Source: Aureispira sp. CCB-QB1
GTDB lineage: Bacteria; Bacteroidota; Bacteroidia; Chitinophagales; Saprospiraceae
Assembly (NCBI RefSeq): GCF_000724545.1
Contig: NZ_JHBV01000032.1
Span: forward strand, 62,001 to 126,000
Length of the DNA stretch: 64,000 bases
Direction: 5' to 3'
The position numbers and the translations under genes were made by a program. The notes under the pieces are model-generated. The model ran no database searches, had not been told where the DNA came from, and saw only the letters and a program-made list of their open reading frames with translations. Shown here one piece after another: positions 3,277 through 56,308 of the stretch. How positions within the stretch are numbered: position 1 is the first letter of the stretch; every line of letters starts with the position of its first letter.

Positions 3277-5256
3277 TTAATAAGCTAATAATTCTTCAAG
3301 AGCTGTTAACAAGCGTTCTTGTGGCAAGAACTGACGCTCTAGGTCTTTGGCAAAAGGAAATGGCGTATCCATACTAGCCACCCGTTTGATAGGAGCATCC
3401 AAATGTTCAAATAAGTTTTCAGCAATATAGGCTGATAATTCTCCTCCAATGCCCCCAATCATCGTGTCTTCGTGTAGTAAAAGTACTCGATTGGTTTTTT
3501 CGACAGAGGCAGCAATTGTTTCGTAATCCAAAGGCAACAAGGTGCGCAAATCAATTACTTCTACATCTGCACCTAAACTATCCACAGCAGCCTTTGCCCA
3601 ATGAACGGCATTACCATAAGTGATAATAGTTGCTTCGGAACCTTCCCTTGCAATGGCAGCTTTTCCTATTTCTACTGTATAATAATCGTCTGGAATCTCA
3701 GCAGACATAGAACGATATAAAGCCTTGTGTTCAAAGTACAGCACGGGATTAGGATCTTCGAAAGCAGCCAAAAGCAATCCTTTGGCATCCTCAGGATTGG
3801 ATGGATAAACAATCTTTAGACCAGGAACATGGAAAAACCAAGCTTCGTTACTTTGAGAGTGAAAAGGTCCCGCTCCAACGCCTCCACCTGTTGGCATACG
3901 CAATACTAAATCTACGTTTTGTCCCCAGCGATAGTGCAATTTAGCAGCATTGTTCACAATTTGGTTGAAACCACAAGTTACAAAATCTGCAAATTGCATT
4001 TCGACCATGGCTTTATAGCCCTTGAGACTTAGTCCCAAAGCTACCCCAACAATCGCACTTTCACACAATGGCGTATTGCGTACTCTGTCTTTGCCAAACT
4101 GTTCCGTAAAACCATCCGTAATTTTGAATACACCTCCATAATCTGCAATATCTTGCCCCATCAAAACCAAGTTATCATATTTCTCCATTGCTTGACGAAG
4201 ACCATCTGATATCGAATCCACAAAACGACGCGTACTAACATTGTTAGAAGCTGGAGCGGTAGATACAGAAGTATGAGGAGCAAATAAGTCCTCCATTTCT
4301 GTTTCAAAGCTAGCTTCTATATCAGGTGTGGCATAAGCAATTTCTAAACCGGCTTCAATTTCTTTTTTGTAAGCTTTTCGCAAATCTTGAATAGCCTCTT
4401 CTGTTAGAATACCTTCTTTTATCAGATACTGTTCATAGTTGCGAATAGGATCTTTTTGCGCCCAGTGATCCATTAAATCTTGGGGTACGTATTTTGTTCC
4501 AGAAGCTTCCTCATGTCCTCTCATACGGAATGTTTTACATTCCAACAAAACAGGACGAGGGTTCTTGCGCATAGATTTAGTTAGTTTATCAACTGTGTTG
4601 TAAACTTCCAAAATGTTATTCCCATCAATTTTATGCCCTTCCATGCCATATCCTTTGGCTCTATCCACCAAATCTTCACAAGCATATTGTTCTGAAGTAG
4701 GTGTCGACAGACCGTATCCATTGTTTTCAATCACAAAGATAACAGGCAGGTTCCAAACTGCCGCCACATTCAACGCTTCGTGAAAATCACCTTCGCTTGT
4801 TCCTCCTTCTCCTGTAAAAGCAACAGCTACTTGACCTTCGTTGGCTAAGTTACTTGCTAAACCAACCCCTCCTGCAAAAGAAAGTTGAGGACCAAGGTGA
4901 GAAATCATACCTACGATATTAAACTCTGGAGCACCAAAGTGAAAGGAGCGATCTCTACCTTTTGTAAATCCAGGTAATTTTCCTTGCCATTGACAAAACA
5001 AACGCTCTAAAGGAACTTCTCTGGTTGTAAATACCCCTAAGTTACGATGCATCGTAAATACATATTCTTCTGGTTGCAAAGCGGCTGTAACTCCTACAGC
5101 AATTGCTTCTTGACCAATTCCTGCAAACCATTTGCTAATGCGACCTTGACGTAATAAAACCAACATTTTTTCCTCTATCATACGAGGTTTGAGCAAGGCA
5201 CGATAAAGCTCTAATAATTTTTTTTGGCTCAATCGTTTTTTGTTGTAGCTGATCAT
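3277..5256 (-). CDS. Fused alpha/beta E1 component of a 2-oxoacid (branched-chain or pyruvate type) dehydrogenase
   Basis: Thiamine-diphosphate-dependent E1 that decarboxylates a 2-oxoacid and hands the acyl group to a lipoyl E2. Residues 1 to about 325 are the alpha subunit: the TPP motif runs from G149-EG to N178-N179, preceded by the HRN segment at 70-72. A roughly 20-residue Ser/Thr/Ala linker (APHTSVSTAPASNN) leads into the beta subunit at about 345-659, with the GQDIADYGGVFKIT and GVGAGPFHSQSNEAWF signatures. In most bacteria these are two genes; the single-chain form is known in Bacteroidota. No E2 or E3 gene lies nearby. A TAnnTTTG box about 95 nt upstream (5352-5359, minus) is a plausible promoter. 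Substrate (branched-chain 2-oxoacid versus pyruvate) cannot be settled from sequence alone. Confidence 0.9.
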   Translation of the reverse strand: MISYNKKRLSQKKLLELYRALLKPRMIEEKMLVLLRQGRISKWFAGIGQEAIAVGVTAALQPEEYVFTMHRNLGVFTTREVPLERLFCQWQGKLPGFTKGRDRSFHFGAPEFNIVGMISHLGPQLSFAGGVGLASNLANEGQVAVAFTGEGGTSEGDFHEALNVAAVWNLPVIFVIENNGYGLSTPTSEQYACEDLVDRAKGYGMEGHKIDGNNILEVYNTVDKLTKSMRKNPRPVLLECKTFRMRGHEEASGTKYVPQDLMDHWAQKDPIRNYEQYLIKEGILTEEAIQDLRKAYKKEIEAGLEIAYATPDIEASFETEMEDLFAPHTSVSTAPASNNVSTRRFVDSISDGLRQAMEKYDNLVLMGQDIADYGGVFKITDGFTEQFGKDRVRNTPLCESAIVGVALGLSLKGYKAMVEMQFADFVTCGFNQIVNNAAKLHYRWGQNVDLVLRMPTGGGVGAGPFHSQSNEAWFFHVPGLKIVYPSNPEDAKGLLLAAFEDPNPVLYFEHKALYRSMSAEIPDDYYTVEIGKAAIAREGSEATIITYGNAVHWAKAAVDSLGADVEVIDLRTLLPLDYETIAASVEKTNRVLLLHEDTMIGGIGGELSAYIAENLFEHLDAPIKRVASMDTPFPFAKDLERQFLPQERLLTALEELLAY

Positions 5257-8185: not shown

Positions 8186-9382
8186 ATGAATTTGACAACA
8201 ACGACATCTTCTTTTTTTAGGAACCGTAACATCATACTTTTTTTGTTAGCCAGTATACAGTTTATTTATACCCTTGATTTGATGATTATGATGCCATTAG
8301 GTTCTTTTCTAATCACTTCATGGAACATAACTACGAATCAGTTTGGTTTACTAATTTCTTCTTTTGCAATCGCAGGCGGTTGCTCCTCCTTTATGGCCGT
8401 TTTTTTTATAGAACGTTATGATCGACTAAAAGCCTTATTTTTAATATTTGCTTGTTTTACAGTAGGTTTGTGGTTGACAAGTTTTGCTCCTAACTATGAG
8501 GTTCTCTTATTTTCAAGAGTATTTACTGGGATTTTTGGAGGTTTATTGGGACCTCTCATTTTAGCAGAAATTAGTTTGCAATTTGAATACTCCAAACGTT
8601 CTAAGCCCATCTCAATAACCACGATCGCCTTGGCATTAGCTTCTATTATAGGGGTACCCATAAGCTTGTATTTAGCGCAATTAGACACTTGGCGATTGCC
8701 ATTTATTTTGTTAAGTACAATGAGCACATTGGTCGGAGCAATGCTATACTTTATCGACTCTAATAAAAAGCAGGAAATAGACCGAAAGAAAAAAATTAGT
8801 TTAACCTCCTTTCTTACAGAATGGAAACCTTTATCAGGTTTATTGGTAACCATTAGCGTTTCATTGAGCCAATACACTATTTTTATATATTTAGCACCCT
8901 ATTTTGTTCATAATCTAGGTATTACAGAAGAAGAACTTTCTTTGATTTATTTAGTAGGAGGAATTTCTGTAATGGTTTTTGCCCCAATAATAGGCTTTCT
9001 TTCCGATCGATATGGCAAACAACGAGTTTTCATTTTATTATCAACGTTCTTAACAGGACCGATCTATTTAGTGAGCCACTGGTCCTTTTCTTTTTTCCAA
9101 CACATTTTAATCTTATCCATCTTTTATTTTGGATTGGATGCAGGAAGAATGATTCCAATCAACACTATTTTATCAGAACTAACGGGAGAAGAAAACCGAA
9201 CGGCTTATCTGAATCTTTGTTCTTCTATAAAAAAAATGGCCATAGGCTCAGCTGCTTTAATAGGCAGTTTGGTCATACACACATTGCCCAATCACCAATT
9301 ACTATACTTTGATCAACTGGGTATTATTGCACTATTGAGTATAACAATATCAATAGTTTTGGTACTAAGAATAAAAATGTAA
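8186..9382 (+). CDS. Major facilitator superfamily transporter (DHA1-like)
   Basis: Twelve-helix secondary transporter of the inner membrane. The hydrophobic helices are evenly spread over 398 residues, with the DHA1-type loop FFIERYDRLKAL after helix 2 and FLSDRYGKQRVFIL after helix 8, the two MFS motif-A positions. The N-terminal FIYTLDLMIMMPLG helix is typical of the arabinose-efflux/multidrug branch. It is 126 bp upstream of the HMG-CoA reductase operon on the same strand and could export its product, but the gap leaves room for a separate promoter. Substrate unknown. Start at 8186 is the first ATG and places helix 1 correctly. Confidence 0.85.
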   Translation: MNLTTTTSSFFRNRNIILFLLASIQFIYTLDLMIMMPLGSFLITSWNITTNQFGLLISSFAIAGGCSSFMAVFFIERYDRLKALFLIFACFTVGLWLTSFAPNYEVLLFSRVFTGIFGGLLGPLILAEISLQFEYSKRSKPISITTIALALASIIGVPISLYLAQLDTWRLPFILLSTMSTLVGAMLYFIDSNKKQEIDRKKKISLTSFLTEWKPLSGLLVTISVSLSQYTIFIYLAPYFVHNLGITEEELSLIYLVGGISVMVFAPIIGFLSDRYGKQRVFILLSTFLTGPIYLVSHWSFSFFQHILILSIFYFGLDAGRMIPINTILSELTGEENRTAYLNLCSSIKKMAIGSAALIGSLVIHTLPNHQLLYFDQLGIIALLSITISIVLVLRIKM

Positions 9383-9508: not shown

Positions 9509-12295
9509 TTGAGAATGTCACAAGTGTTGAATGAAATAGAGAGAATTAGCGGACTATTAAAAACTTATAACATCATGGAAAATCAAAACACAAAAACGAG
9601 AAGGTATTTTCACGAAACTCAATTGCCTGAAATTTTACTGGCGATAGGAAGTGATCTATTGACAGGATGCATGACCGACTTTTCGGATGATGAACTTAGA
9701 ATTTACTGTTCTTTGGAGAGTAATTTATACATAGGACAGATTGTCGATGCTCTTTATTTTAAACAAACCGATGAAAATTATTGCTTAGAAAGGTTGCGTG
9801 TACAAAGAATTCGAAAGAACGAATTAACAGAACAACTATCGGTTTCTTTATTATTACTCAACACCGATCAAATAGAACGTTTTCAAAATATTCTAAAAAA
9901 AATGACTTTGTTGACGCAGCAAAATACCAAAGGGGTGTTTGAATTAAAGACATTTCCTTGGTTTCCAGGAAGTGCTCATTATTCTGAAAGAGCGATAGAG
10001 AAAAGACAAGAGTGGCTAGAAAAAACAACAGGAATACACATCGATGCTTTGAACGAATCCGTTTTTTTCCCACCGAGCTTATCAGGGAATATAGAAAACT
10101 ACATTGGAGCTGTTCAGATTCCTGTAGGAATAGCAGGACCTATAAAAATTAATGGAATGTATGCCAATGGTTATATTCCTGTTCCAATTGCAACTACAGA
10201 AGGTGCCTTAGTGAGTTCGATAACAAGAGGGGCGATGGCAACAAATATGGCAGGAGGAATTGATGTGCAAGTTGTCAAACAGCAAATGGTTCGGGCTCCT
10301 GCTTTTTTTTGTGAAGATATTCATGGCGCTGTCAACTTAGAAAAATGGATTTATGAACACCAAATGGAGATTACTAAGGAAGCAGAAAAAATGTCCTCTG
10401 TTGCCAAATTAATTCAAATCATTCCTTTCTTATTTGGAGATACCTTGCATTTAAAATTTCATTTTAGAACAGGAGATGCTTCTGGGCAAAATATGACAAC
10501 GGCTTGTACTTGGGCAGCTTGTGAATGGATCGTATCAAAAATCCAAGAAGATCCTTACATCAAATATCAAAATTATATTATTGATGGCAACTTGGCAGGA
10601 GATAAAAAAGTAACGGCTCAAAACTTTTTGATGGGGCGAGGAGTAACTGTAACGGGAACTTGCTTTGTCTCTGGACAAATATTACGTGATGTGCTGCGAA
10701 TTACGGCAGACGATTATATCAAAAATTTTCAGGCAGGAGAAGTGGCAGGATTAAAGTCGGGGATGGTTGGACACAATATTAATTTTGCCAATGTTATTGC
10801 AGGTGTTTTCACAGCAACAGGACAAGACATTGCCAGTGTACACGAATCTTCTTGTGGTATTCTAAAAGCTAGAAAACAAGAAGATGGTATTCTTTTTACA
10901 GTCTATTTGCCCTCGCTTACCATTGGTACTATTGGAGGAGGAACGGGATTACCAACTCAAAAAGAAAGCCTAAAAATAATGGGTTGTTACGGACAACGAC
11001 AGCTGTTTAGATTTGCAGAAATTATTGCCAGTAGTTGTTTAGCTTTAGACTTGTCGACAGGAGCAGCTGTTACCGCTCAAGAATTTGTCAGTGCACACGA
11101 ACGCTTAGGACGCAATAGAAATCACAATCAACTAACCAAGTCAGAGCTCAATATTGCTTTTTTCAATAGCCTATTTACAAGTAGAGAGGTAGTTTCTTTT
11201 GAGGCATTGGATTTTTCGGAAAATGAAGGCTTGGTATCGCATTTAACCAGCAAGTCAAATGAGGGAATAACAGGACTTTTTAAATATGAATTAACAACCA
11301 AAACCCAAACGCCATCAACTTTAGATCCATCTGAAGAAAAAATTAAAGCTGTCTTAAAATTAAAAGCTTCTCACAAAGAAGCTATCCGAGCAGCTAGCAT
11401 GGTGATTAAATTATCAGGAGAGGATGTATTACCTGGTTATTTTGAAACGTATCATGCTGTATTTGGTTTTGATAATTGTGATGAGCGAGAAATGGCGTTT
11501 TATACCCAAGCCCCTTTGTCTATCAAACAGTTTTGTCCTCAGTTGTTGGGGGCAAGACAGGAGCCTCAAAGGCAGGTTTTTGCTTTGTTATTAGAAGATG
11601 TAACAACATACTTGCACCCCAAATCTTCTAATGATGCCTCTATATGGAATAGCTTTAGAATACAGACAGTAGTGAGCGATTTGGCAAAAGTGCATAGTGT
11701 CTATTGGAATAATTATGAAGCCATCCCACAAACAATGAAAGTCAAACCATTTTTAGAACGGTTTGATTCCTCTGCGACAATTTTATTAAAAGAAGCATTG
11801 AAGTTCAATGCTCAAAATCACCCACATTTAATTTCTGTAGAGTTGCACCAAAAGCTAGCATATTTCTTAGACAATTTTGATAGACATCTTGATACAATGA
11901 ATGGTTATCATAAAACTCTAATTCACAACGATTGCAATGCTAGAAATATTGGCGTAAGGGAAGAAGGAGAAAAAGCCCGTTTAATTTTATTTGATTGGGA
12001 ATTGGCGGCATATCATAATCCTCAAAGAGATTTAATCGAACTTCTTGCTTCGGTATTGCCTGCTAGTGCTAGCAAGGCAGAATTTATCACTTGGGTAGAT
12101 TATTATTTGCAGGCATTGAGTCGAGAAACACAAACAACTTTTGATCGAGAGTTATTTTTAAAAGTGCTAGAAATCAATGCTTATGAATGTGCTTTGATTC
12201 GATTAAATTTATATTTATTGGTTCATAATATCATGAAGTTGGAATACATTGATCAATTGTATGGGAATGTAATCCGATTTGGAATAGAAGCCTAA
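9509..12295 (+). CDS. HMG-CoA reductase fused to a C-terminal APH-type phosphotransferase domain
   Basis: Two enzymes in one 928-residue chain. Residues about 150-560 are a class I-like HMG-CoA reductase, which makes mevalonate from HMG-CoA: ENYIGAVQIPVGIAGP (196-211), the catalytic glutamate E231 in ATTEG, DASGQNMTT (323-331), the lysine pair K366-K367 in GDKK, D440 in ATGQD, GTIGGGTG (473-480) and histidine H530 with the trailing GRNRN. Residues about 620-928 look like an aminoglycoside/choline-kinase fold: Brenner loop H806-N-D808-CNAR-N813 and metal-binding D829 in LFDWELA. Residues 1-150 match nothing I recognise. Ordinary HMG-CoA reductases lack a kinase domain. It leads a tight operon (11 bp to the next gene) with a nucleotidyltransferase and two P-loop kinases. 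The reductase call is firm; the kinase substrate is unknown. Confidence 0.88.
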   Translation: MRMSQVLNEIERISGLLKTYNIMENQNTKTRRYFHETQLPEILLAIGSDLLTGCMTDFSDDELRIYCSLESNLYIGQIVDALYFKQTDENYCLERLRVQRIRKNELTEQLSVSLLLLNTDQIERFQNILKKMTLLTQQNTKGVFELKTFPWFPGSAHYSERAIEKRQEWLEKTTGIHIDALNESVFFPPSLSGNIENYIGAVQIPVGIAGPIKINGMYANGYIPVPIATTEGALVSSITRGAMATNMAGGIDVQVVKQQMVRAPAFFCEDIHGAVNLEKWIYEHQMEITKEAEKMSSVAKLIQIIPFLFGDTLHLKFHFRTGDASGQNMTTACTWAACEWIVSKIQEDPYIKYQNYIIDGNLAGDKKVTAQNFLMGRGVTVTGTCFVSGQILRDVLRITADDYIKNFQAGEVAGLKSGMVGHNINFANVIAGVFTATGQDIASVHESSCGILKARKQEDGILFTVYLPSLTIGTIGGGTGLPTQKESLKIMGCYGQRQLFRFAEIIASSCLALDLSTGAAVTAQEFVSAHERLGRNRNHNQLTKSELNIAFFNSLFTSREVVSFEALDFSENEGLVSHLTSKSNEGITGLFKYELTTKTQTPSTLDPSEEKIKAVLKLKASHKEAIRAASMVIKLSGEDVLPGYFETYHAVFGFDNCDEREMAFYTQAPLSIKQFCPQLLGARQEPQRQVFALLLEDVTTYLHPKSSNDASIWNSFRIQTVVSDLAKVHSVYWNNYEAIPQTMKVKPFLERFDSSATILLKEALKFNAQNHPHLISVELHQKLAYFLDNFDRHLDTMNGYHKTLIHNDCNARNIGVREEGEKARLILFDWELAAYHNPQRDLIELLASVLPASASKAEFITWVDYYLQALSRETQTTFDRELFLKVLEINAYECALIRLNLYLLVHNIMKLEYIDQLYGNVIRFGIEA

Positions 12296-12306
12296 TTATA
12301 TCCCTT

Positions 12307-13680
12307 ATGAAAATATCAAATACAACCATAGAAGACCAGTTGTTGGTTTTGTTGAGTTATAATAACTTAACACCAAGCGAAAAAACGAAAATAGAACAAC
12401 TTATTCCTTTGATCTCGTCTTGGGAGTCCTTTTATAACTTGGCTCGATTTAATAGGATCATACCTCACATCTACCGCATTCTGAAGCAAGAGAACTGGTG
12501 GCAACAGATACCAGACCATGTTCAAGATGAAATTAGTGAAAGAGCCGCTGAAATTCAACAGATTAATGCAGCAAGATTACAGAAGGCAAAGCCAATCTTA
12601 AAACGCTTTCAAGAAGCAGGAATTGAGTTTGTGATTTTAAAAGGCGTTTTATTTGCAGAGACTATTTATCAAAATAGTTTTTATAAAAGAATGAATGACA
12701 TTGATATTTTGGTTCGAAAAAAATCGATTCCCAACATTTTGCAAATATTTGAAGAAGAAGGCTTGTTGTGTATTGGAGAGCGCATTGGAGGAAACCCAGA
12801 GAAACAACTCAAAACGTCTCATCATTTGCCCCCATTCATTGATCGAGAGTTACAATGTATGTTTGGGATACAGTGGGGGTTAAAATCTCCTTTAACCCCT
12901 TATCGATTAGATTATGAGGCAATATGGTCAAGAGTGCGCCCTTTTTCTTTTTTAGGCTTAAATGCCTTGCAGATGTGCCCAGAAGATAATTTTCATCATA
13001 TTTGTGTGCATTTGGGCTATTATAAAAATGGGCTTAGAGATGTCTTTGATATTTATAACTTGTTACGAAAATATGAAGCTAATTTTGATTGGCAGTTATT
13101 AGAAACCGAAGTGAAAAAGGCAGGAACAGAACGTTTGATGTATTTTGCGCTTTCGTTGACCAATTCATTATATTCTAACCCAACTGTGAGTGAGTTGATA
13201 AAAAAAATGGAACCCCAAACTTCTGCTTATTACAAAAAAGGTGTTGCAGAGAAAACAAAAAATTTGCATACTCAATTGAGAATTGGAACCTCCTATCCAA
13301 CAGAAGTAGAAAAGGCAATTTCAGAGTTTAATGCCACCAATCAGTTCAAGGAAAAATCTTATTATTTTTGGTTAACTTGGAAATATTTGCTTTTTCCTCC
13401 AATGGAAGAGGCTAAGAAGATGGCTGCTAATTTATACCCTAATGCTAGACAAGGTGTTTGGATTTGGTGGACTCGATCTTATCGAATGTTAGAGTACATT
13501 GCGAGTGAAATTAGTTGGCTGTTGCTGTTTGCATTGATGTTTAAAACATGGTACGATTTACTTCAATGTGGTTGGTCCAATTTGTTTTTTAAGTCCTCAA
13601 AAACTTCTACCAAAGAAAAAATGAACACCTTAGGTATATCAGAAGAAGCATTAGAACGCATCAAAAAAAGAATTCAATAA
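12307..13680 (+). CDS. Nucleotidyltransferase-fold protein (PF14907-like, uncharacterised)
   Basis: Resembles the uncharacterised nucleotidyltransferase family PF14907. The signature is visible at residues 108-136: FVILKGVLFAETIY, then RMNDIDILV, where D131 and D133 would be the metal-binding aspartates and L111-K-G the conserved Lys-Gly. The helical N-terminus (1-100) and the segment HHICVHLGYYKNGLRDVFDIYNLL further along also fit the family. A hydrophobic stretch near residues 400-420 (ISWLLLFALMFKTW) may touch the membrane. Family members occur in RiPP and polysaccharide loci, with no single known reaction. The stop codon overlaps the next start by one base (TAATG at 13678-13682), which implies translational coupling. 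Function in this operon unknown. Confidence 0.75.
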   Translation: MKISNTTIEDQLLVLLSYNNLTPSEKTKIEQLIPLISSWESFYNLARFNRIIPHIYRILKQENWWQQIPDHVQDEISERAAEIQQINAARLQKAKPILKRFQEAGIEFVILKGVLFAETIYQNSFYKRMNDIDILVRKKSIPNILQIFEEEGLLCIGERIGGNPEKQLKTSHHLPPFIDRELQCMFGIQWGLKSPLTPYRLDYEAIWSRVRPFSFLGLNALQMCPEDNFHHICVHLGYYKNGLRDVFDIYNLLRKYEANFDWQLLETEVKKAGTERLMYFALSLTNSLYSNPTVSELIKKMEPQTSAYYKKGVAEKTKNLHTQLRIGTSYPTEVEKAISEFNATNQFKEKSYYFWLTWKYLLFPPMEEAKKMAANLYPNARQGVWIWWTRSYRMLEYIASEISWLLLFALMFKTWYDLLQCGWSNLFFKSSKTSTKEKMNTLGISEEALERIKKRIQ

Positions 13681-14306
13681 TGAAAGAACCACAATGGATT
13701 TGTATTACAGGAACCGATGGTGCTGGTAAATCTAGTTTAATAGATATTTTATTGCAAGACACCATTTTGTTTAACGGCAAAAAAGTCAAAGAAGTCACAA
13801 TCTGGGATTTGTTTTATTTACCCAAGGAAGAGCAACATCTTTCTATTTCTTCTAAGCAAGCTGTTGATTGGTATTTAAAAAGTCTTTCTCCTCAAAGTCG
13901 TACGTTCTTTTTATTACACTGCATGGCACAAGCATTAGAAATTGCCAGAAGAGAAGCAGTAGAGATTGCTTTGATTAATGCCTATTGGTACAAGTATCTA
14001 GCAACAGAAGTTGCTTATGATGGAAACTTAGCCCATCGGCTTAGCTTGACAACTTCTTTTCCGAAGCCAGATCTTGTTTTTTCTTTAAATGTTTCTGTCA
14101 AAACAGCAGGACAACGAAAGAAACACTATTCAGCCTTTGAAAGTGGATTTCCTGAACAGGTCAATACAAAGCAATTTATGAATTTTCAACATAAAGTACA
14201 AGCAGCTTATCAGCAGATTATGACTACAGTAGAGCATATTGCTTTGGATGGAGAACTACCTTTGTTAGAATTAAAAAAGCAGATTCTAGCGCAACTAAAA
14301 TTTTAA
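13680..14306 (+). CDS. Thymidylate-kinase-like P-loop protein lacking the DRY motif
   Basis: P-loop NTPase shaped like a nucleoside monophosphate kinase. Walker A is G11-TDGAGKSS19 at the N-terminus. Where thymidylate kinases have the D-R-Y motif that helps bind the acceptor, this protein has N100-A-Y in ALINAYWYKYLATEVAYDG, followed by the usual AYxG-like helix. Loss of the arginine suggests that it does not phosphorylate dTMP, and it may act on another phosphorylated substrate or be regulatory. It is translationally coupled to the nucleotidyltransferase and lies 3 bp before a second, better-conserved paralogue. As it is not a normal thymidylate kinase, I give no gene symbol. Confidence 0.72.
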   Translation: MKEPQWICITGTDGAGKSSLIDILLQDTILFNGKKVKEVTIWDLFYLPKEEQHLSISSKQAVDWYLKSLSPQSRTFFLLHCMAQALEIARREAVEIALINAYWYKYLATEVAYDGNLAHRLSLTTSFPKPDLVFSLNVSVKTAGQRKKHYSAFESGFPEQVNTKQFMNFQHKVQAAYQQIMTTVEHIALDGELPLLELKKQILAQLKF

Positions 14307-14309
14307 ATA

Positions 14310-15125
14310 ATGAAACCGTATACTATTACAATAACAGGAATTGATGGTTGTGGAAAAAGCACTGTTATTCATCAATTGATCAAAAAACAAAAAGAAGTTC
14401 CAGAAGCCTATCAAGTATTGGCATGTACTAATTTTCACGATACGCCCAATGCTCCTTTTTCTGAGTTGTCTCAAGGCATGGATGCCTTATCCCAATATGC
14501 TGATATTCGAAAAGATCCAACGATTAAGTATGTTGCTTTATATTTAAAAATGACCTTGTTTGGGGCAATAGAGCAATTTTTTGCTGATTATTATCAACCC
14601 AATGTGTTAATTACAGAACGCCATCCACTAGTAGGGAGTTTGGTTTATGGTAATTTATACCTACAAATGAACTCCAAATTGAATCTACAAGAAAATTCTA
14701 CTTGGAATGAATCATTGTTAGAAGAACAACAAATTCCTTGGGCAAGTATTTTACATTGGTTTAAATTAGAAAATAAACGGCTTGGAAGAAGGATAGATTT
14801 TTGGGAATTGCCAGCATACTTAGTAAAAATTCAGCAACAGCAACTTTCAGAACTAATTCCTTCTTTAGCAACTCTTTTTAGAACAACCTTACCGCAAAAG
14901 ATCATTCATTTCCAAATTGAAGAAAATATTGCTGCTACAAGAGTAGGGCAACACAAACCCAAAGAAATACATGAAAGTGAACAGCATTTGATATATCTTC
15001 ATCAAGCTTATTTAAAGGCATTAAAATATATGGAAAAACAAGGTGTAGCAGTAACTTATTTAGTGGTACAAGGGAAAGATCCCAATGACCTGATGAACGA
15101 TGTATGGAGAGCAATTTATCCATAA
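14310..15125 (+). CDS. Thymidylate-kinase-like P-loop protein with conserved ERH motif
   Basis: Second P-loop kinase-like protein of the operon. Walker A is G10-IDGCGKST18; the acceptor-side motif E103-R104-H105 in VLITERHPLVGSLVYG corresponds to the DRY/ERH position of thymidylate kinases. At 271 residues it is longer than a housekeeping Tmk (about 200-215), with an extra middle segment (residues 125-190) and a C-terminal helical tail (HLIYLHQAYLKALKYME). It starts 3 bp after the preceding gene and is followed by a hairpin at 15156-15181, so it closes the operon. The reaction is unknown; phosphorylation of a phosphorylated small molecule is the simplest reading. Confidence 0.72.
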   Translation: MKPYTITITGIDGCGKSTVIHQLIKKQKEVPEAYQVLACTNFHDTPNAPFSELSQGMDALSQYADIRKDPTIKYVALYLKMTLFGAIEQFFADYYQPNVLITERHPLVGSLVYGNLYLQMNSKLNLQENSTWNESLLEEQQIPWASILHWFKLENKRLGRRIDFWELPAYLVKIQQQQLSELIPSLATLFRTTLPQKIIHFQIEENIAATRVGQHKPKEIHESEQHLIYLHQAYLKALKYMEKQGVAVTYLVVQGKDPNDLMNDVWRAIYP

Positions 15126-48370: not shown

Positions 48371-48904
48371 CCTACTTTAATTTGAGAAAAAAAAAGACCA
48401 AATTAAGTAAATCTAAAAAAAAATAATTTGTTGATTTGCCTAATGTTTTTATTTCGTGTCGATTAAAAGTTGTGAGGAACTTTACTACTTCGCTATTTTT
48501 ATGGATGATGAATCTTAAAAAATATCATTATCAGCACTCAATATCTTATTTTCGATTTTACGAAGCAGAATTACACTAAAAAAAAGAAACACATTACATT
48601 GTTTAACAAAATAGCAGGATATAAGGTTCAATTCTACACAATTATAATTTTCTAGATTAAATTTTTCGACCATTTTTGAAAAATGAATAGACAAAGCAAG
48701 CATTTGACTACTAAAATAGGATATATCTATTGTTAGCTAGAAAATCTTTGTCTTAGAAATAAGAGAATCAGCGAAAATTAAATATTTTTGGAGTCATTTT
48801 GTTAAAGTCCACTCTTTTTCAGAGCATTACCAATGCCCTAAAAATGGACCTAGATGAGGCGAGTCTACAAAAGACCGTTCGTCTTAATAACCAAGCAGTT
48901 TTTT
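48371..48904. other. 534-bp region between ruvA and sprA
   Basis: No gene. A TATTTTTG box at 48783-48790 is a weak promoter candidate for sprA in very AT-rich sequence. No terminator was found after ruvA, so read-through into sprA is possible. Confidence 0.5.
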
Positions 48905-51900
48905 ATGAATTTCAAGACACTGAATTTGTGCTTTTGGGTAGTATGTACCTATACAGTAGCAGGATGGAGTACAGACTATAACACTCTCAATTATTTAGAG
49001 GAAGATTTTTGGGCTTCGCCAACCTTTTTTATGCCAGACACCTTGCCTCCAATACAGGATAGACCAGAGGTAGATGTATCGAACAAACAAAATCCGTTTG
49101 ATTTAAAGGATCCCAAAGTAATCGAAAAAAATGTAGAGTATGATGCAGAAAGTAATCTGTATATCATTACTGAAACGATCAACGGATCTTACTATCGATC
49201 TCCAATGTACTTAACTCCCGATGAATACTTTAAGTGGAGGGCAGAACAGGAGGACAAAGCCTATTTTAAGGAGTTGTCTCAAATGAATAAAGTAGGAAAA
49301 GTTGGAGGTGATCCTGTTGCGCCTTATCAAGATCGAATTAGCAATAGCTTGGTTGAGCGTCTGTTTTGTGGTTCAACAATTGATGTTCGACCTCAAGGTA
49401 ATATAGGTTTGACATTTGGTTTTGATTATCAAAGAATCGCAAATCCTATCTTGACTGAACAACAGCAACAACAAGGTGGTTTTGATTTTGATATGAATAT
49501 TCAGCTGAGTGTGGTCGGTAAGATTGGGCAAAAACTAAAGCTGTCTTTTAACTATAACACACAAGCTACCTTTGATTTTGATCGCCAAATTAAAGTAGAA
49601 TATTTGAGTGATACAGAATGTTCAGAAGATGACATTATCAAAAAAATAGAAGCAGGTAACGTTAGTTTTCCATTGCGTTCTTCTCTTATACAGGGGCGCC
49701 AAAATTTATTTGGCTTTCGCACAGATTTGCAATTTGGTCGTTTAAAAATGTCTTTGGTTGCTTCTCAAAGTCAAACCAAACGAAAAGAAATTCAAATCAA
49801 AGGTGGTTCTCAATTGCAAGATTTTGAGGTAACAGCAGATAATTATGATGAAAATCGACATTTCTTCCTTTCTCATTACAACCGTGCTACTTACGAAGAG
49901 AATTTAACGACGCTACCTCAGATCAATACGCTGTTTAATATTACCAAAATAGAAGTATGGGTAACCAATGATCGAAATGTAACCGAAGGCGTTCGAGATG
50001 TCGTGGCTTATGCAGATTTGGGAGAAACGGATCCTAGCAAAATGGTTAGTGGCAACCAATACAATCCTTCGACCGCATCTGAACAAGGGATTGATTTAAG
50101 AAACAATCGTCTACCAGATAATGATGCCAATGATTTATATAAAGAGTTGTTGGCTAGTGAAAATGGGACTCCTTCGGGGAACGCTCGTGGGCTTCAAACA
50201 TCTATTAGTGCTTTACAAGGTGCCCCGTTTAATATGAGTGATGCAGAAGACTTTGTGAAAATCAGAGCCCGTAAATTGTCGCCCTCAGAGTTTACCTATG
50301 ATCCTAAACTTGGGTTCGTATCTGTCAATGTGTCGATCAAGCCAACAGATGTAGTCGCAGTGGCTTATCAATATACTTATAATGGTCAGATATACCAAGT
50401 GGGGGAGTTTGCACAAGATTTGCCTTTGAATGCTGACACTTTGAATGTAATGCATTTAAAATTATTAAAGGGAGTTAGAACAAGAGTTGATTTGCCAATT
50501 TGGGACTTAATGATGAAAAACATTTATTCCTTAGGAGCCTATCAAATTAATCAAGAAGACTTTATGCTGGATGTCTTTTATCAAGACCCAGGAGGAGGAG
50601 AGAAGCGATTTTTGCCAGAGGGACCACCAGAAGGAAAGCCCTTGATTACGATGTTGAACTTAGATAATCTGAACAGAGCAAGAGACCCTATTCCTGATGG
50701 ACAGTTTGACTATATCCCAGGGACAACGATTTTGCCTAGAAACGGACGTGTCATTTTTCCAGTTTTAGAGCCTTTTGGAAGTTCGTTGGCTGGAGAGTTT
50801 TATCGAACACCTGGTGATCCTGCAAGTTTACATCCTATTTCTCAAAAATATCTATACAACCAGCTCTACGATTCTACAATTACAAGAGCAAGAGAATTTC
50901 CAGAGTTTAATCGATACATTATACGAGGTCGTTACAAGTCTAGTGTTTCTTCTGAAATTTCCTTGGGAGGATTTAATATTCCGAAAGGGTCGGTAGTGGT
51001 AACAGCGGGTGGACGTACATTGACAGAAGGTACGGATTATACGATTGATTATAATTTGGGAAGAATTAAAATTTTGAATGAGGCTTATTTGAATTCTGGA
51101 CAGCCAGTTCGAGTTGCTTTTGAGGACAATGCTACCTTTGGGTTTAATCAACAAGGCTTTTTTGGAGCAAGGTTTGATTACTTTGTGAATAAAGATCTGA
51201 ATATTGGAGCTACCTTTTTGCACTTAAACGAACGCCCCTTTACACAGAAGGTAAATTATGGGGATGACCCTATTTCGAATAGTATTTATGGATTTGACGT
51301 ACAATATAGCAGCGAAGCACCTTGGTTAACTCGTTTGATAGATAAAATACCATTGATTAGCACCAAGGCAATGTCAAATATTTCGTTTTCAGCAGAATTT
51401 GCACATTTAATTCCTGGTTCTCCAGATATTATCAATCAAGCTAATGACGAAGGAGGAGTTGTTTTTATTGATGATTTTGAGGGATCAACGAGCAATTTTA
51501 ATTTGTCTATTCCAAGTTTAAATTGGGTGTTGGCAAGTACGCCAAGAAGTGACCTTTCTAATCCTTTGTTCCCAGAAGCAAGTTTGTCAAATGATTTGGA
51601 ATACAATAAAAACAGAGCAAGAATAGCATGGTATAACTTGGAACCTGCTTTAAATTTCACCTCTGGTTCTAAGAGTATTTATACACGTGAAATTCAACAA
51701 CAAGAGGTTTTTCAAAATGTTCAAAATACAGGTTTAACCTATACTGGACTACGTACATTTGATTTGTCTTATAGACCGAAGGAACGTGGACCTTATAACT
51801 TTGATACGACAAACATAGATCCAGCTACAGGAGAATTTACCAACCCTGCTGATCGTTGGGGAGGTGTTATGCGTAGTTTGACAAATACTGATTTTGAGGC

Positions 51901-54900
51901 TTCTAATATTGAGTTTGTCGAAATGTGGGTCATGAGTCCTTTTAAAGAAGGTTATGGTGGTAATGGTGGAGACTTGTATATTGAGTTGGGAGATGTTTCG
52001 GAAGATATCTTAAAAGATTCTCGATTGTTCTTTGAGAATGGGATACCAGCCGCCAATTCTAATACTAGTACAGATGAAACTGTCTGGTCAAGAATTCCAA
52101 GAACACAAGCTGTTACACGTGCTTTTGACAATGATCCTGCTATTAGAGACCAACAAGATATTGGTTTGGATGGCTTTGATGATGAAGGAGAACGTCAGCA
52201 TTATGCTTCTTATCTAAGTGCCATGCAACGAATTGTTGCACCAGGTATTTTCCAAGGCATTCAAGATGACCCAGCAGGAGATAACTTCCGTTTTTATAGA
52301 GATGCCTTTTATGATGATCCTGCCAACATTCCTTCAGGAAACTTAGAAGATCCAACTTTGTATCGTTATATTAAATATAACAACCCACAGGGTAACTCTT
52401 CTAATGATCAGAGTACCAATAATCAGGCTATTTCAACTTCTACCAACATTCCAGATACAGAGGATTTAAACAAAGACAATACGCTAAACGAGCAAGAGTC
52501 CTACTATCGTTATCATATTCCAATTCGCAGAGAAAATGGTGATGAGATGGCATTTACTCAGTATACCATTGATTCTGTTCGTATGAACTATGATGGCCCT
52601 AATGGACCAGAGACAGTATATTGGTATCAGTTGAAAATCCCTGTGGATAAATTTACCAGTCGTGTCGGAGGAATTTCTGATTTCCGTGCCATTCGATTTA
52701 TGAGAATGTATATGACAGGGTTTGAAGAAAAAACGACGTTGCGTATGGCTCGTCTAGATTTGATTCGCAATCAATGGAGACGTTATATCAGAGATTTGAC
52801 CTTGCCAGGTTTGATTATTCCTCCAGAAGATCCAAGTAACACAACATTTGATGTATTTGCAGTAAATATTGAAGAAAATGGTTCTAAAATTCCATTTAAT
52901 TATGTGTTGCCTCCTGGTGTGTCTCGTGAACAAGTGATTGGTTCTGTTACCAATGCACAACAAAATGAACAATCGCAAGCGTTGAGAGTTTGTAACCTAG
53001 AAGATGGAGATGCTAGAGGAATTTATAAAATCGTAGACTTGGATATGCGGGTTTATGAACGTTTAAAAATGTATGTTCATGCAGAAAATTTGAGAGGAGA
53101 GCAAGAAAATGATCCTGGAGACATGACCATGTTTATGCGAATAGGAAGTGATTTTGAAAATAACTACTATGAGTATGAAATTCCTTTGACAATGTCAGAC
53201 GAAAGTGGAGGAATCAAAGACGATCAAAATATTTGGTTGGAAGAAAATCAATTTGATTTCCCTCTCGAATTACTACGTCAAGTAAAAGTCGATAGAGAAG
53301 TGAAAGGAATTGCCTTGAGTGATTTGTATGAGTCATTTGATGGAAATAATATTATTAGAGTAAAAGGTAACCCAACACTTGGGCAAGTAAAAGGGGTAAT
53401 GGTTGGGGTACGCAACCGCAAAGACGATGGTTTGGCACGTTGTGCAGAGATTTGGATTAATGAGTTGCGTTTGACTGGTTTTGACGAGCGAGGTGGATTT
53501 GCTGGTTTGGCGAGATTGGATGTTCAACTAGCCGATTTTGGACAATTGACGGCATCGGGAAGTTACCAATCCATTGGTTTTGGAAATATCGACCAAAGTG
53601 TCGGAGAGCGTAGTCGTGAGGAGTTGATACAATACGATATTTCAGGTTCTTTGAAATTGGACAAGTTCTTTCCCGAAAAATGGAAATTAAGCATTCCTTT
53701 TTATGCGCAGTATTCTCAAGAGATTAGTACGCCAGAGTTTGATCCATATCAACTGGATGTTCCTTTAGAACAACGTTTGGCTTCTATTTCTGATTTGAGA
53801 AGACGAGATTCTATTCGACAAGCAGCGAGAACCATACGAACGATTTCTAGTTTTAACTTTACAAATGTTCGAAAGGGAAGAACGTCTAAATTTGTCCCAT
53901 TACCAACAGATATTTCTAATTTCTCCTTTACGTATGCACAATCGAGTAATATTTTCCGCTCACCAATAATTGAACGAGAAGAACGGACGGAGCATAGAGG
54001 AGTTTTGGATTATAATTACTCTCCTGGAGTTAAACCTATTTATCCATTTAAAAAGGCGATTAATAAAATAAAAAATAAAAATGCTGTAAAATGGTTGGGA
54101 CTCATTCGAGAAATTAACATTAATCCATTGCCTAATGCCATTGGTTTTAGAAATGAATTGAAGCGTAATTTTGGGGAAACAACGTATCGATTTACAGATG
54201 CAACTACTAGTACTTATTACGATAAGAAGTTTATTTGGGATAGAGCTTATAATTTGCAATGGAATATCTTTAAGTCCTTGCGTTTGAATTACACGGCTAC
54301 GAATAACGCAATTATTGATGAACCAGAAGGTAGAATTGATGAGCAAGTAGAAAGGGATGTTTTGTGGAACAATATCAAACGTTTTGGTCGAACTAAGAAC
54401 TACCAACATAATGTCAGTGCTAGCTATACGTTGCCTCTAAAATATATACCTGCACTCGACTGGGTAACTGTTAAAGGACAGTATTCAGCAACCTATAGTT
54501 GGACTGCTGCCACCTTGGGCTTGGATAGCTTAGGAAATGTTATTCAAAACTCTCAAAAACGTCAAGTTACAGGAGATTTCCAATTTAAGAAATTGTATGA
54601 CAAGTGGAATTATCTGAAAAAGATAGGAACTCCAAAACGTCCTTCTGCTGGTGGTAAAGGCAAAGAGAAGAAACCAGAAAAAATTAAATTACCTGAAAAG
54701 AAAAAATATCCACCTCTAAGAGAGATTGAAGATCCTGAGAAGCGTGCAGAGGAAAAGGAAAAACGAAAAATGGAACGCAAGGCTTGGCGAGAAGAAGTCA
54801 AGAAAATTAGAGAAAAAAGGCAGCCTAGTGGTGCAGAGCGTGCTCTAATTCGTCCATTAATGTTGTTGCAACGAGCGAGGGTGACTTACAATGAAAACTT

Positions 54901-56308
54901 TACGACAGTGCTTCCTGGTTTTATGGGAACCTCCAAATATGTTGGTCAAGACTATACGGGAACGAATACCAACCCAGGTCCACGACCAGGATGGGACTTT
55001 ATTGCGGGGTGGCAGCCAGATCGTACTTGGTTGGACAAAGCCGCAGAGAGTGGCTGGATTTCAACAAGTATTTATCAAAATCAACCTTTGATACAGACGC
55101 ATACTCAAACTTATTCAGCAAAAGTCACTTTGGAACCCATTCAAGGATTGAAAATTGATGTTGATTTGGATAAGACGATTACAGAGAACTATCAAGAGTT
55201 GTTCAAGGTCGAAGATCAGTTTAGCAATGACGAATTTTCTCATTTGAATGGTATGTTGAGTGGTACTGTAAAAATGACCTACTTGCCTTTAGCTACTTTC
55301 TTTGATAAGGAGGGAACCAAAGGAACGAACTCTTCGGTCAACTTTGAAACCTTTGAGAGCAATCGAATTATTATTTCTCAACGGAAAGGGACAGGAACGC
55401 ATGATGACACAGAAACCAATCCTGGCTTTACAGAAGGATATGGTCGTTATCAACAAGATGTTTTGATTCCTGCTTTCTTGGCGGCTTATACGGGGCGCGA
55501 TGCTAATAATATAGAGTTAGGAGATATCCGTAATACGATGCCTCTGCCAAACTGGAAATTGACCTATAATGGTTTGTCAAAAATGCCTGGCTTAGATAAA
55601 ATTTTCTCTAGTTTTAGCTTAACTCATGGCTACAAATCAACCTTAACAGTCAATCAATTTGTTACGGATTTGGATTTTGCGTCTACGTTGGCACCAACAG
55701 GTACCAATGGAAAAGATGTTAATAGTCAAAACTATTATTCTAGCTTTGAAATCCCTAATTTGGTGATTTCTGAATCATTCAATCCTTTGATTGGGGTAGA
55801 CATGCGTTTCAAAAATGATTTGTCTTTAAATTTCCAATATAAAACAAGTAGAAATTTGTCTATGAGTTTTATTGACTATCAATTGAGTGAACAAAATACA
55901 ACTGATGTAACGGTTGGTTTTGGATGGAAATTCAAAAACTTTAAACCAATTGAGTTCTTTAAGAATAAGAAAAAGAAAGAAAAGGAAAAAGAAAAAATCA
56001 AGTTGGGGGAAATGGATTTCAATTTTGATTTTGGAAAAACCATTGCTAAAGATGAGTTGAACTTGAAATGTGATGTTTCTTTCCGTGATGACAAAACGGT
56101 CAATCATATCTTAGATCAAGATCAATCGGTTGCTACGCGAGGAATGCAAACGATTCGTATTTCACCATCGTTGGAATGGATTCCAAATAATCGCTTGACA
56201 TTCCGTCTGTTCTTTGATTATACGCAAACGATACCAGCTGTATCAACGTCTTTCCCTATTACTAGTTTGAAAGGTGGTTTGACGATCCGCTTCTCATTGT
56301 CACAATAA
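48905..56308 (+). CDS. sprA: T9SS outer-membrane translocon SprA (Sov)
   Basis: The largest gene here: a 2467-residue beta-barrel forming the outer-membrane pore of the type IX secretion system, needed for gliding adhesin and cargo export. The ATG at 48905 gives a signal peptide (MNFKTLNLCFWVVCTYTVAG); the frame is open 17 codons further to 48854 but that adds no family sequence. Recognisable SprA segments: STIDVRPQGNIGLTFGFDYQ, TPDEYFKWRAEQ, GQKLKLSFNYNTQATFDFD, GVVFIDDFEGSTSNF, and the C-terminal strand GGLTIRFSLSQ. Two lysine-rich stretches stand out, about residues 1910-1975 (GGKGKEKKPEKIKLPEKKKY) and 2350-2368 (NKKKKEKEKEKIKLG), likely periplasmic loops. The gene ends in a strong terminator. 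PorV and other partners are not nearby. Confidence 0.96.
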   Translation: MNFKTLNLCFWVVCTYTVAGWSTDYNTLNYLEEDFWASPTFFMPDTLPPIQDRPEVDVSNKQNPFDLKDPKVIEKNVEYDAESNLYIITETINGSYYRSPMYLTPDEYFKWRAEQEDKAYFKELSQMNKVGKVGGDPVAPYQDRISNSLVERLFCGSTIDVRPQGNIGLTFGFDYQRIANPILTEQQQQQGGFDFDMNIQLSVVGKIGQKLKLSFNYNTQATFDFDRQIKVEYLSDTECSEDDIIKKIEAGNVSFPLRSSLIQGRQNLFGFRTDLQFGRLKMSLVASQSQTKRKEIQIKGGSQLQDFEVTADNYDENRHFFLSHYNRATYEENLTTLPQINTLFNITKIEVWVTNDRNVTEGVRDVVAYADLGETDPSKMVSGNQYNPSTASEQGIDLRNNRLPDNDANDLYKELLASENGTPSGNARGLQTSISALQGAPFNMSDAEDFVKIRARKLSPSEFTYDPKLGFVSVNVSIKPTDVVAVAYQYTYNGQIYQVGEFAQDLPLNADTLNVMHLKLLKGVRTRVDLPIWDLMMKNIYSLGAYQINQEDFMLDVFYQDPGGGEKRFLPEGPPEGKPLITMLNLDNLNRARDPIPDGQFDYIPGTTILPRNGRVIFPVLEPFGSSLAGEFYRTPGDPASLHPISQKYLYNQLYDSTITRAREFPEFNRYIIRGRYKSSVSSEISLGGFNIPKGSVVVTAGGRTLTEGTDYTIDYNLGRIKILNEAYLNSGQPVRVAFEDNATFGFNQQGFFGARFDYFVNKDLNIGATFLHLNERPFTQKVNYGDDPISNSIYGFDVQYSSEAPWLTRLIDKIPLISTKAMSNISFSAEFAHLIPGSPDIINQANDEGGVVFIDDFEGSTSNFNLSIPSLNWVLASTPRSDLSNPLFPEASLSNDLEYNKNRARIAWYNLEPALNFTSGSKSIYTREIQQQEVFQNVQNTGLTYTGLRTFDLSYRPKERGPYNFDTTNIDPATGEFTNPADRWGGVMRSLTNTDFEASNIEFVEMWVMSPFKEGYGGNGGDLYIELGDVSEDILKDSRLFFENGIPAANSNTSTDETVWSRIPRTQAVTRAFDNDPAIRDQQDIGLDGFDDEGERQHYASYLSAMQRIVAPGIFQGIQDDPAGDNFRFYRDAFYDDPANIPSGNLEDPTLYRYIKYNNPQGNSSNDQSTNNQAISTSTNIPDTEDLNKDNTLNEQESYYRYHIPIRRENGDEMAFTQYTIDSVRMNYDGPNGPETVYWYQLKIPVDKFTSRVGGISDFRAIRFMRMYMTGFEEKTTLRMARLDLIRNQWRRYIRDLTLPGLIIPPEDPSNTTFDVFAVNIEENGSKIPFNYVLPPGVSREQVIGSVTNAQQNEQSQALRVCNLEDGDARGIYKIVDLDMRVYERLKMYVHAENLRGEQENDPGDMTMFMRIGSDFENNYYEYEIPLTMSDESGGIKDDQNIWLEENQFDFPLELLRQVKVDREVKGIALSDLYESFDGNNIIRVKGNPTLGQVKGVMVGVRNRKDDGLARCAEIWINELRLTGFDERGGFAGLARLDVQLADFGQLTASGSYQSIGFGNIDQSVGERSREELIQYDISGSLKLDKFFPEKWKLSIPFYAQYSQEISTPEFDPYQLDVPLEQRLASISDLRRRDSIRQAARTIRTISSFNFTNVRKGRTSKFVPLPTDISNFSFTYAQSSNIFRSPIIEREERTEHRGVLDYNYSPGVKPIYPFKKAINKIKNKNAVKWLGLIREININPLPNAIGFRNELKRNFGETTYRFTDATTSTYYDKKFIWDRAYNLQWNIFKSLRLNYTATNNAIIDEPEGRIDEQVERDVLWNNIKRFGRTKNYQHNVSASYTLPLKYIPALDWVTVKGQYSATYSWTAATLGLDSLGNVIQNSQKRQVTGDFQFKKLYDKWNYLKKIGTPKRPSAGGKGKEKKPEKIKLPEKKKYPPLREIEDPEKRAEEKEKRKMERKAWREEVKKIREKRQPSGAERALIRPLMLLQRARVTYNENFTTVLPGFMGTSKYVGQDYTGTNTNPGPRPGWDFIAGWQPDRTWLDKAAESGWISTSIYQNQPLIQTHTQTYSAKVTLEPIQGLKIDVDLDKTITENYQELFKVEDQFSNDEFSHLNGMLSGTVKMTYLPLATFFDKEGTKGTNSSVNFETFESNRIIISQRKGTGTHDDTETNPGFTEGYGRYQQDVLIPAFLAAYTGRDANNIELGDIRNTMPLPNWKLTYNGLSKMPGLDKIFSSFSLTHGYKSTLTVNQFVTDLDFASTLAPTGTNGKDVNSQNYYSSFEIPNLVISESFNPLIGVDMRFKNDLSLNFQYKTSRNLSMSFIDYQLSEQNTTDVTVGFGWKFKNFKPIEFFKNKKKKEKEKEKIKLGEMDFNFDFGKTIAKDELNLKCDVSFRDDKTVNHILDQDQSVATRGMQTIRISPSLEWIPNNRLTFRLFFDYTQTIPAVSTSFPITSLKGGLTIRFSLSQ

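Follow-up and report, generated by a model that had tools for sequence, protein, structure and literature searches.

An HMG-CoA reductase-like protein fused to a kinase as a candidate lipid enzyme in Aureispira and other bacteria

The 64,000-nucleotide stretch of DNA analysed here (hereafter the window; positions 62,001 to 126,000 of contig NZ_JHBV01000032.1, in the 7.37-Mb, 184-contig genome of Aureispira sp. CCB-QB1) contains four tightly coupled plus-strand open reading frames (ORFs). They encode a protein in which a 3-hydroxy-3-methylglutaryl-CoA (HMG-CoA) reductase-like half is fused to a kinase half, a nucleotidyltransferase-fold protein (NT5), and two thymidylate-kinase-like P-loop proteins (TK1 and TK2). 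HMG-CoA reductase (HMGR), the target of statins, is a textbook enzyme known for a single reaction. The four-gene unit is real and conserved, and its likeliest function is one in lipid biosynthesis. With moderate confidence, we propose that the fusion is a two-step lipid enzyme giving a long-chain alkyl phosphate and that NT5, TK1 and TK2 form one head-group module. The reductase half would convert a long-chain acyl thioester to the alcohol, which the attached kinase would turn into an alkyl phosphate, from which an unusual lipid of the membrane or surface would presumably be built. NT5, TK1 and TK2 would activate or attach a polar group; in sister clusters, this part would fall to a CarS-like protein with a cytidine diphosphate (CDP)-alcohol phosphatidyltransferase, or to a DUF3419 (BtaA-like) protein. 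The lipid reading is based on the replacement of the reductase half by a fatty-acyl-type reductase in some relatives, the lipid-type neighbours, the altered reductase pocket, the missing decarboxylase and presumed head-group modules that do not co-occur. Within it, we infer the substrate, the order of the steps, the lipid and its chain, whether the product is an ether or a phosphodiester, and what NT5, TK1 and TK2 each do.

The fusion protein and its relatives

The fusion occupies 9509..12295 (928 amino acids, aa), with an uncertain 5' end (TTG at 9509, in-frame ATG at 9515). It contains an HMG-CoA_red domain at residues 162-535 (9992..11113; PF00368, E 3.7e-104) and a kinase domain, defined by the ecdysteroid-kinase-like (EcKL) match at residues 672-874 (11522..12130; PF02958, E 1.3e-13) with HxDx4N and DWE motifs. 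The latter overlaps an APH match at residues 759-868 (E 1.1e-07), and the N-terminal 155 residues matched no family above cut-off in the family scan. NT5 (12307..13680, 457 aa; NTP_transf_5, E 8.7e-45) follows after 11 bp, TK1 (13680..14306, 208 aa; Thymidylate_kin, E 2.8e-06, barely above cut-off) overlaps NT5 by 1 bp, and TK2 (14310..15125, 271 aa; Thymidylate_kin, E 7.2e-05, below cut-off) starts 3 bp further on. An initial annotation, made from the DNA sequence alone, had described the fusion, the PF14907 protein, the two thymidylate-kinase-like genes, their spacings and nine residues of the fusion. The ORFs and Pfam matches confirm the genes, the spacings are as described, and all nine residues are present: E231, K366, K367, D440 and H530 in the reductase half, and H806, D808, N813 and D829 in the kinase half.

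A first search of genome contigs with the single protein as query found no relative, and an alignment of the kinase domain then gave 83. Eighty named contigs (L077-L156) were kept and, with the window, make up the 81 loci compared here. The joined contig of genome G133, identical with L086, was left out of the 81 loci, and the 72 rows of the fusion alignment include this duplicate. HMGR-kinase fusions of at least 600 aa occur in 71 of the 81 loci. The other ten are two shorter proteins (L082, 565 aa; L123, 524 aa), the kinases of L145, L148 and L152, the cluster c45 proteins of L149, L151, L154 and L156, and a 1523-aa protein with HMGR and APH matches (L103). The relatives belong mainly to Bacteroidota, followed by Gammaproteobacteria, Myxococcota and single other taxa, although many are metagenome-assembled genomes whose taxon labels are possibly wrong; Kordia, Phaeodactylibacter and Thalassolituus are cultured genera among the carriers. 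Among 150 genomes of the family of the host, 45 have a reductase match. Alignments spanning reductase and kinase were found in its own genome (G000), G127, G128, G133, G098 and G104, and G022 has the fusion as two pieces at contig edges. In the class, 11 of 395 genomes have a kinase match at E 1e-8.

The reductase half retains the catalytic apparatus of class I HMGR. It shares the PF00368 domain and the catalytic residues with the Methanothermococcus (6hr7) and human (1dq8) enzymes, the catalytic Glu being present in all 70 readable fusion rows and the Lys, Asp and His in 72 of 72. The fusion differs from these enzymes in the fused kinase and in the HMG pocket, which in both includes Lys735, His752 and Ser684 (human numbering). 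In every one of the 72 rows, His752 is replaced by Asn, Ser684 by Glu or Asp, and the Lys following GRG is lost; His752 and GRGK are kept in all 15 standalone class-I-like reductases. None of the 72 rows has a Lys aligned with Lys735, where Ser, Phe, Gly, Ala, Val, Thr or Leu is found. On the reading proposed here, the substrate of the fusion reductase has probably changed relative to that of HMGR.

The kinase half has the Brenner-type motif and the metal-binding Asp of EcKL/APH-type kinases, as HxDx4N...D[WFY]E in 66 of 68 fusion rows (missing in L119 and L120). It resembles the kinases of PF02958 and PF01636 in domain match and motif and is unlike them in its fusion to a reductase. A different reductase is joined to the kinase family in L149, L151 and L156, where NAD_binding_4, of the fatty-acyl/thioester reductase family, replaces HMGR in the fusion; L149 and L151 additionally have a carrier domain. 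L154 was grouped with these three by clustering (c45). For L156, which has no Pfam kinase domain at E 0.01, the link to the kinase is a tblastn match (22% identity, E 2e-16). Phosphoenolpyruvate (PEP)-synthase-like (cluster c1), ligase, methyltransferase and acyltransferase genes adjoin L151 and L154, and no recurring neighbour cluster is represented beside L149 or L156. This exchange of reductases is the strongest pointer to a changed reductase substrate. The kinase also stands alone in L145, L148 and L152 (392-396 aa), beside ligase, DUF3419, c1 and UbiA genes.

Neighbouring genes and presumed head-group modules

Clusters of neighbouring proteins were named from scans of one or two members each. 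Among them are the PEP-synthase-like proteins with PPDK_N and PEP-utilizers domains (c1, 41 of 81 loci), UbiA (c3, 26 loci), AMP-binding acyl-CoA ligases of the fatty acid CoA ligase family (c5, 19 loci) and MMPL/RND proteins (c6, 13 loci). They are joined by CarS-like (c2), CDP-OH_P_transf (c4), fused CarS-like and CDP-OH_P_transf (c15), ICMT-family (c16) and methyltransferase (c20) proteins, PlsC acyltransferases (c21, 7 loci), fatty-acid desaturases (c26 and c40, 6 and 4 loci) and DUF3419 proteins of the BtaA family (c28, 6 loci). A conserved protein of about 375 aa (c7; L134:13962-15089 and 12 relatives) has the fusion and the PEP-synthase-like gene as neighbours; it matched no family above cut-off in the family scan. 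At least one lipid-type neighbour (c2-c5, c15, c16, c20, c21, c26, c28 or c40) accompanies 58 of the 81 loci and 51 of the 71 fusion loci, and the former number rises to 65 when c1 and RND proteins are also counted. Sixteen loci then remain, namely the window, L086 and a further 14, of which five lie on stretches below 7 kb. Three of the 16 (L084, L096 and L101) have a strong c1 match elsewhere in the genome.

Three presumed head-group modules can be distinguished among the loci, and none of the 81 has two of them: CarS/CDP-alcohol (42 loci), DUF3419 (6 loci) and NT5/TK (10 loci). The CarS/CDP-alcohol and NT5/TK modules avoid each other with a Fisher p of 3e-4, a value to be read with the reservation that related loci are not independent.

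The NT5/TK genes recur near the fusion in ten loci, including the window. Eight other loci have homologues of all three, and the ninth, L100, at the end of its stretch, has NT5 only, so that nine of the ten have TK1 and TK2. Since the homologues recur near fusions in nine other loci, the grouping goes beyond chance, and the search for the same operon in other genomes that the initial annotation had suggested thus returned a conserved gene set. A quick tree built from 71 rows placed the NT5-type loci with 3 changes of the label, compared with a mean of 9.3 after shuffling. NT5 matches the PF14907 profile, and its NDxD motif is invariant in 10 sequences. Its structure model (predicted local distance difference test score, pLDDT, 76.2) has no match at E 0.001; the weak matches are a Thermotoga nucleotidyltransferase (the best, 4.1e-03), MenT1, LnuA, ANT(2'') and FKRP (E 0.025). 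FKRP has also been solved with CDP-ribitol, and its match to the NT5 model hints weakly at a possible transfer of a phospho-alcohol by NT5.

P-loops are kept in TK1 and TK2, and both resemble the thymidylate kinase family in this respect. They depart from it in their TIGR00041 scores of 43.1 (TK1) and 29.6 bits (TK2), below the cut-off of 83.25 for dTMP kinase. The fold of TK2 is also alike, its model (mean pLDDT 83.2) matching thymidylate kinases, AbmG and deoxynucleoside kinases with a best E of 6.8e-07.

Several observations weigh against a lipid function. The window itself has no lipid-type neighbour, and for this locus the lipid reading is taken over by analogy from its relatives. A strict lipid-type neighbour occurs in only two of the ten NT5 loci, as a desaturase in L102 and L110, so the tie of the NT5 type to lipids is thinner than that of the other types, with the fusion and the PEP-synthase-like gene as its main carriers. 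That gene lies within the stretch in 7 of the 10 NT5 loci and adjoins NT5 in G133 (the contig of L086), but it was not found in the genome of the host or in G127. The window fusion shares only 32-35% identity with other fusions of its family and, in the tree, does not group with the remaining nine NT5 loci; its branch is long, and it was placed beside long-branched standalone reductases, a join that the program warns may be false. No module is carried by 23 of the 81 loci, and the mutual exclusion of modules may reflect ancestry. Among the part of their neighbours that was scanned, the standalone kinases L145, L148 and L152 have no recognised reductase. The pocket argument has weak points as well: the Lys735 column is not diagnostic, as Lys (like Ser684) is missing from all 15 standalone class-I-like reductases too, and the adjoining column holds a Lys in 20 of the 72 fusion rows, in a region where the alignment is gapped. 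These two observations weaken the loss of Lys735 as a special mark of the fusions.

The PEP-synthase-like protein was also considered as an obligatory partner of the fusion. A match was found in 8 of 17 genomes, strong in L102, L101, L084 and L096, partial in L119 and weak in L104, L107 and L111, and none in the genomes of L092, L094, L097, L098, L108, L115 and L088. Together with its absence from the searched genomes of the host and G127, this rules out such a role, and the window unit and the Kordia type would therefore work without that protein. A wider scheme can be drawn as a tentative extension, in which we place rather little confidence: a lipid pathway of several phyla in which the HMGR homologue would act as an alcohol-forming acyl-thioester reductase, the fused kinase would make alkyl phosphates, and in many lineages the PEP-synthase-like protein would provide further activation and a UbiA-type transferase would join the chain to a backbone, giving archaeal-style alkyl (ether) lipids with fatty chains and three interchangeable head-group modules.

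Mevalonate genes and competing explanations

The fusion could instead be a genuine HMGR that feeds mevalonate or phosphomevalonate to a prenyl or archaeal-type lipid built by UbiA, CarS-like and CDP-alcohol enzymes. The catalytic residues of the reductase, UbiA and CarS/CDP-alcohol genes in 26 and 42 of the 81 loci, and CarS-like and archaetidylserine-synthase-like model hits among the neighbour proteins would all suit this explanation. We nevertheless consider it unlikely: the pocket changes and the swap with a fatty-acyl-type reductase argue against it, and none of the ten NT5-type stretches contains UbiA. The mevalonate genes point the same way. Diphosphomevalonate decarboxylase (TIGR01240) was surveyed in 20 genomes carrying the kinase family, reached via their loci and of unstated completeness, with L145 and L148 representing the standalone kinase. 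It was detected in six (L142, L143, L148, L097, L106 and L095; three above cut-off), which favours a genuine HMGR, but not in the other 14, namely all 11 gammaproteobacterial genomes, one of them labelled Thalassobium, and L145, L126 and L087. A mevalonate pathway partner is thus not general among carriers, even though the host of the window has one. Moreover, a further reductase is present in all seven fusion genomes that were scanned. The decarboxylase was found in G133, G098, G104, G128 and G022. The fusion as the sole HMGR of G133, G098 and G104, suggested by a single match in each, was ruled out by a second reductase of about 450 aa in every one of them.

The genome of the host encodes three PF00368 reductases. 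Besides the fusion, these are a standalone class-I-like protein of 515 aa and a divergent one in a 470-aa frame, which we take as class II from its length and score. The 515-aa protein has an HMG-CoA_red_N domain, is encoded on the contig of the fusion, 61 kb downstream of it (L002:1096-2643), and has relatives in the family; it has no aligned Lys735 or Ser684 and coexists with the divergent third reductase. Among three PF00288 GHMP proteins, one is a homoserine kinase above the NCBIfam cut-off and one is mevalonate-kinase-like (79.6 bits, below the cut-off of 163), and no distinct GHMP phosphomevalonate kinase was seen among them. The third, the diphosphomevalonate decarboxylase, scores 161.3 bits, below its cut-off of 171. 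1-Deoxy-D-xylulose 5-phosphate reductoisomerase (PF02670) was not found, nor was HMG-CoA synthase by PF08540, a profile that an archaeal-type synthase may escape because two of four archaeal controls were unmatched.

One of the two original suggestions was a soluble specialised metabolite that the four genes would make, phosphorylate and nucleotidylate and that the upstream major facilitator superfamily (MFS) protein would export; we regard it as rather improbable. The weak matches of the NT5 model to the small-molecule nucleotidyltransferases LnuA and ANT(2''), and of the TK2 model to AbmG, a kinase solved with cytidine nucleotides, are in its favour. The MFS gene (8186..9382, plus strand, 126 bp upstream of the fusion) has the myxochelin exporter model as its best NCBIfam match, at 203.7 bits against a cut-off of 525. 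Its membership of the unit is doubtful, as it falls in no neighbour cluster recurring in at least three of the related loci, and export by this protein has no comparative support. The logic of making, phosphorylating and nucleotidylating a product comes close to ours, but the lipid-type genes near 58 of the 81 loci point to a lipid as that product.

The other suggestion, that the fused kinase, TK1 or TK2 phosphorylates mevalonate or phosphomevalonate toward isopentenyl diphosphate, would account for the lack of a distinct GHMP phosphomevalonate kinase in the host, but it is very improbable, and as the leading explanation it was ruled out by the other reductases, the mevalonate-kinase-like gene and the distribution of the decarboxylase, fusions occurring in genomes without a detected decarboxylase, including those of the NT5-type loci L126 and L087. 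The same gap is common to G021, of the same genus, and G057, which have a reductase, no fusion found and only homoserine-kinase-like and mevalonate-kinase-like GHMP proteins (the decarboxylase being untested in both); the gap is therefore not tied to TK1/TK2. The 8 (TK1) and 14 (TK2) Pfam families listed at E <=0.1 include no phosphomevalonate kinase family, and the 50 listed PDB matches of the TK2 model include no such kinase.

In a second genome of this species, all five genes recur with identities of 98.7-99.7%. Promoter and terminator scans gave no more matches than shuffled sequence, and Rfam and tRNA scans of the window found nothing. Elsewhere in the window, a minus-strand ORF of 659 aa (3277-5256) resembles by eye a fused two-part 2-oxoacid dehydrogenase E1, and a very long plus-strand ORF of 2484 aa lies at 48854-56308.

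Known systems and significance

The loci share their logic with the myxobacterial elb ether-lipid operon, in which ElbD combines acyl activation, a carrier protein, a fatty-acyl-type reductase and an acyltransferase (PMC9131029, PMC9426513). Parts of the elb type are present as separate genes in L151 and L154. The domain lists given for ElbD in these papers, as far as their excerpts extend, name no kinase, HMGR-like reductase, UbiA or CarS, and the proteins of the window have only the HMGR-type reductase rather than a single ligase-carrier-reductase-acyltransferase protein. Archaeal-type ether lipid genes in bacteria have in common with the loci a UbiA family enzyme and the logic of CDP activation, and the excerpts of their description contain no HMGR-kinase fusion (PMC7852524). 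Another paper mentions an HMGR and a GHMP kinase next to a Lipocone gene (PMC12419801), a case distinct from the fusion. Judged by titles and the beginnings of abstracts, the open-access papers covered by the search neither linked an HMGR-kinase fusion with lipid genes nor described this gene set.

If the proposed function is true, this widespread branch, marked by its altered pocket and attached kinase, would represent a new activity for the HMGR fold, and HMGR annotations would mislead the reconstruction of pathways. PF14907, an uncharacterised nucleotidyltransferase family, would gain a testable role. Within cultured genera, the clusters point to candidates for a bacterial lipid not yet recognised.

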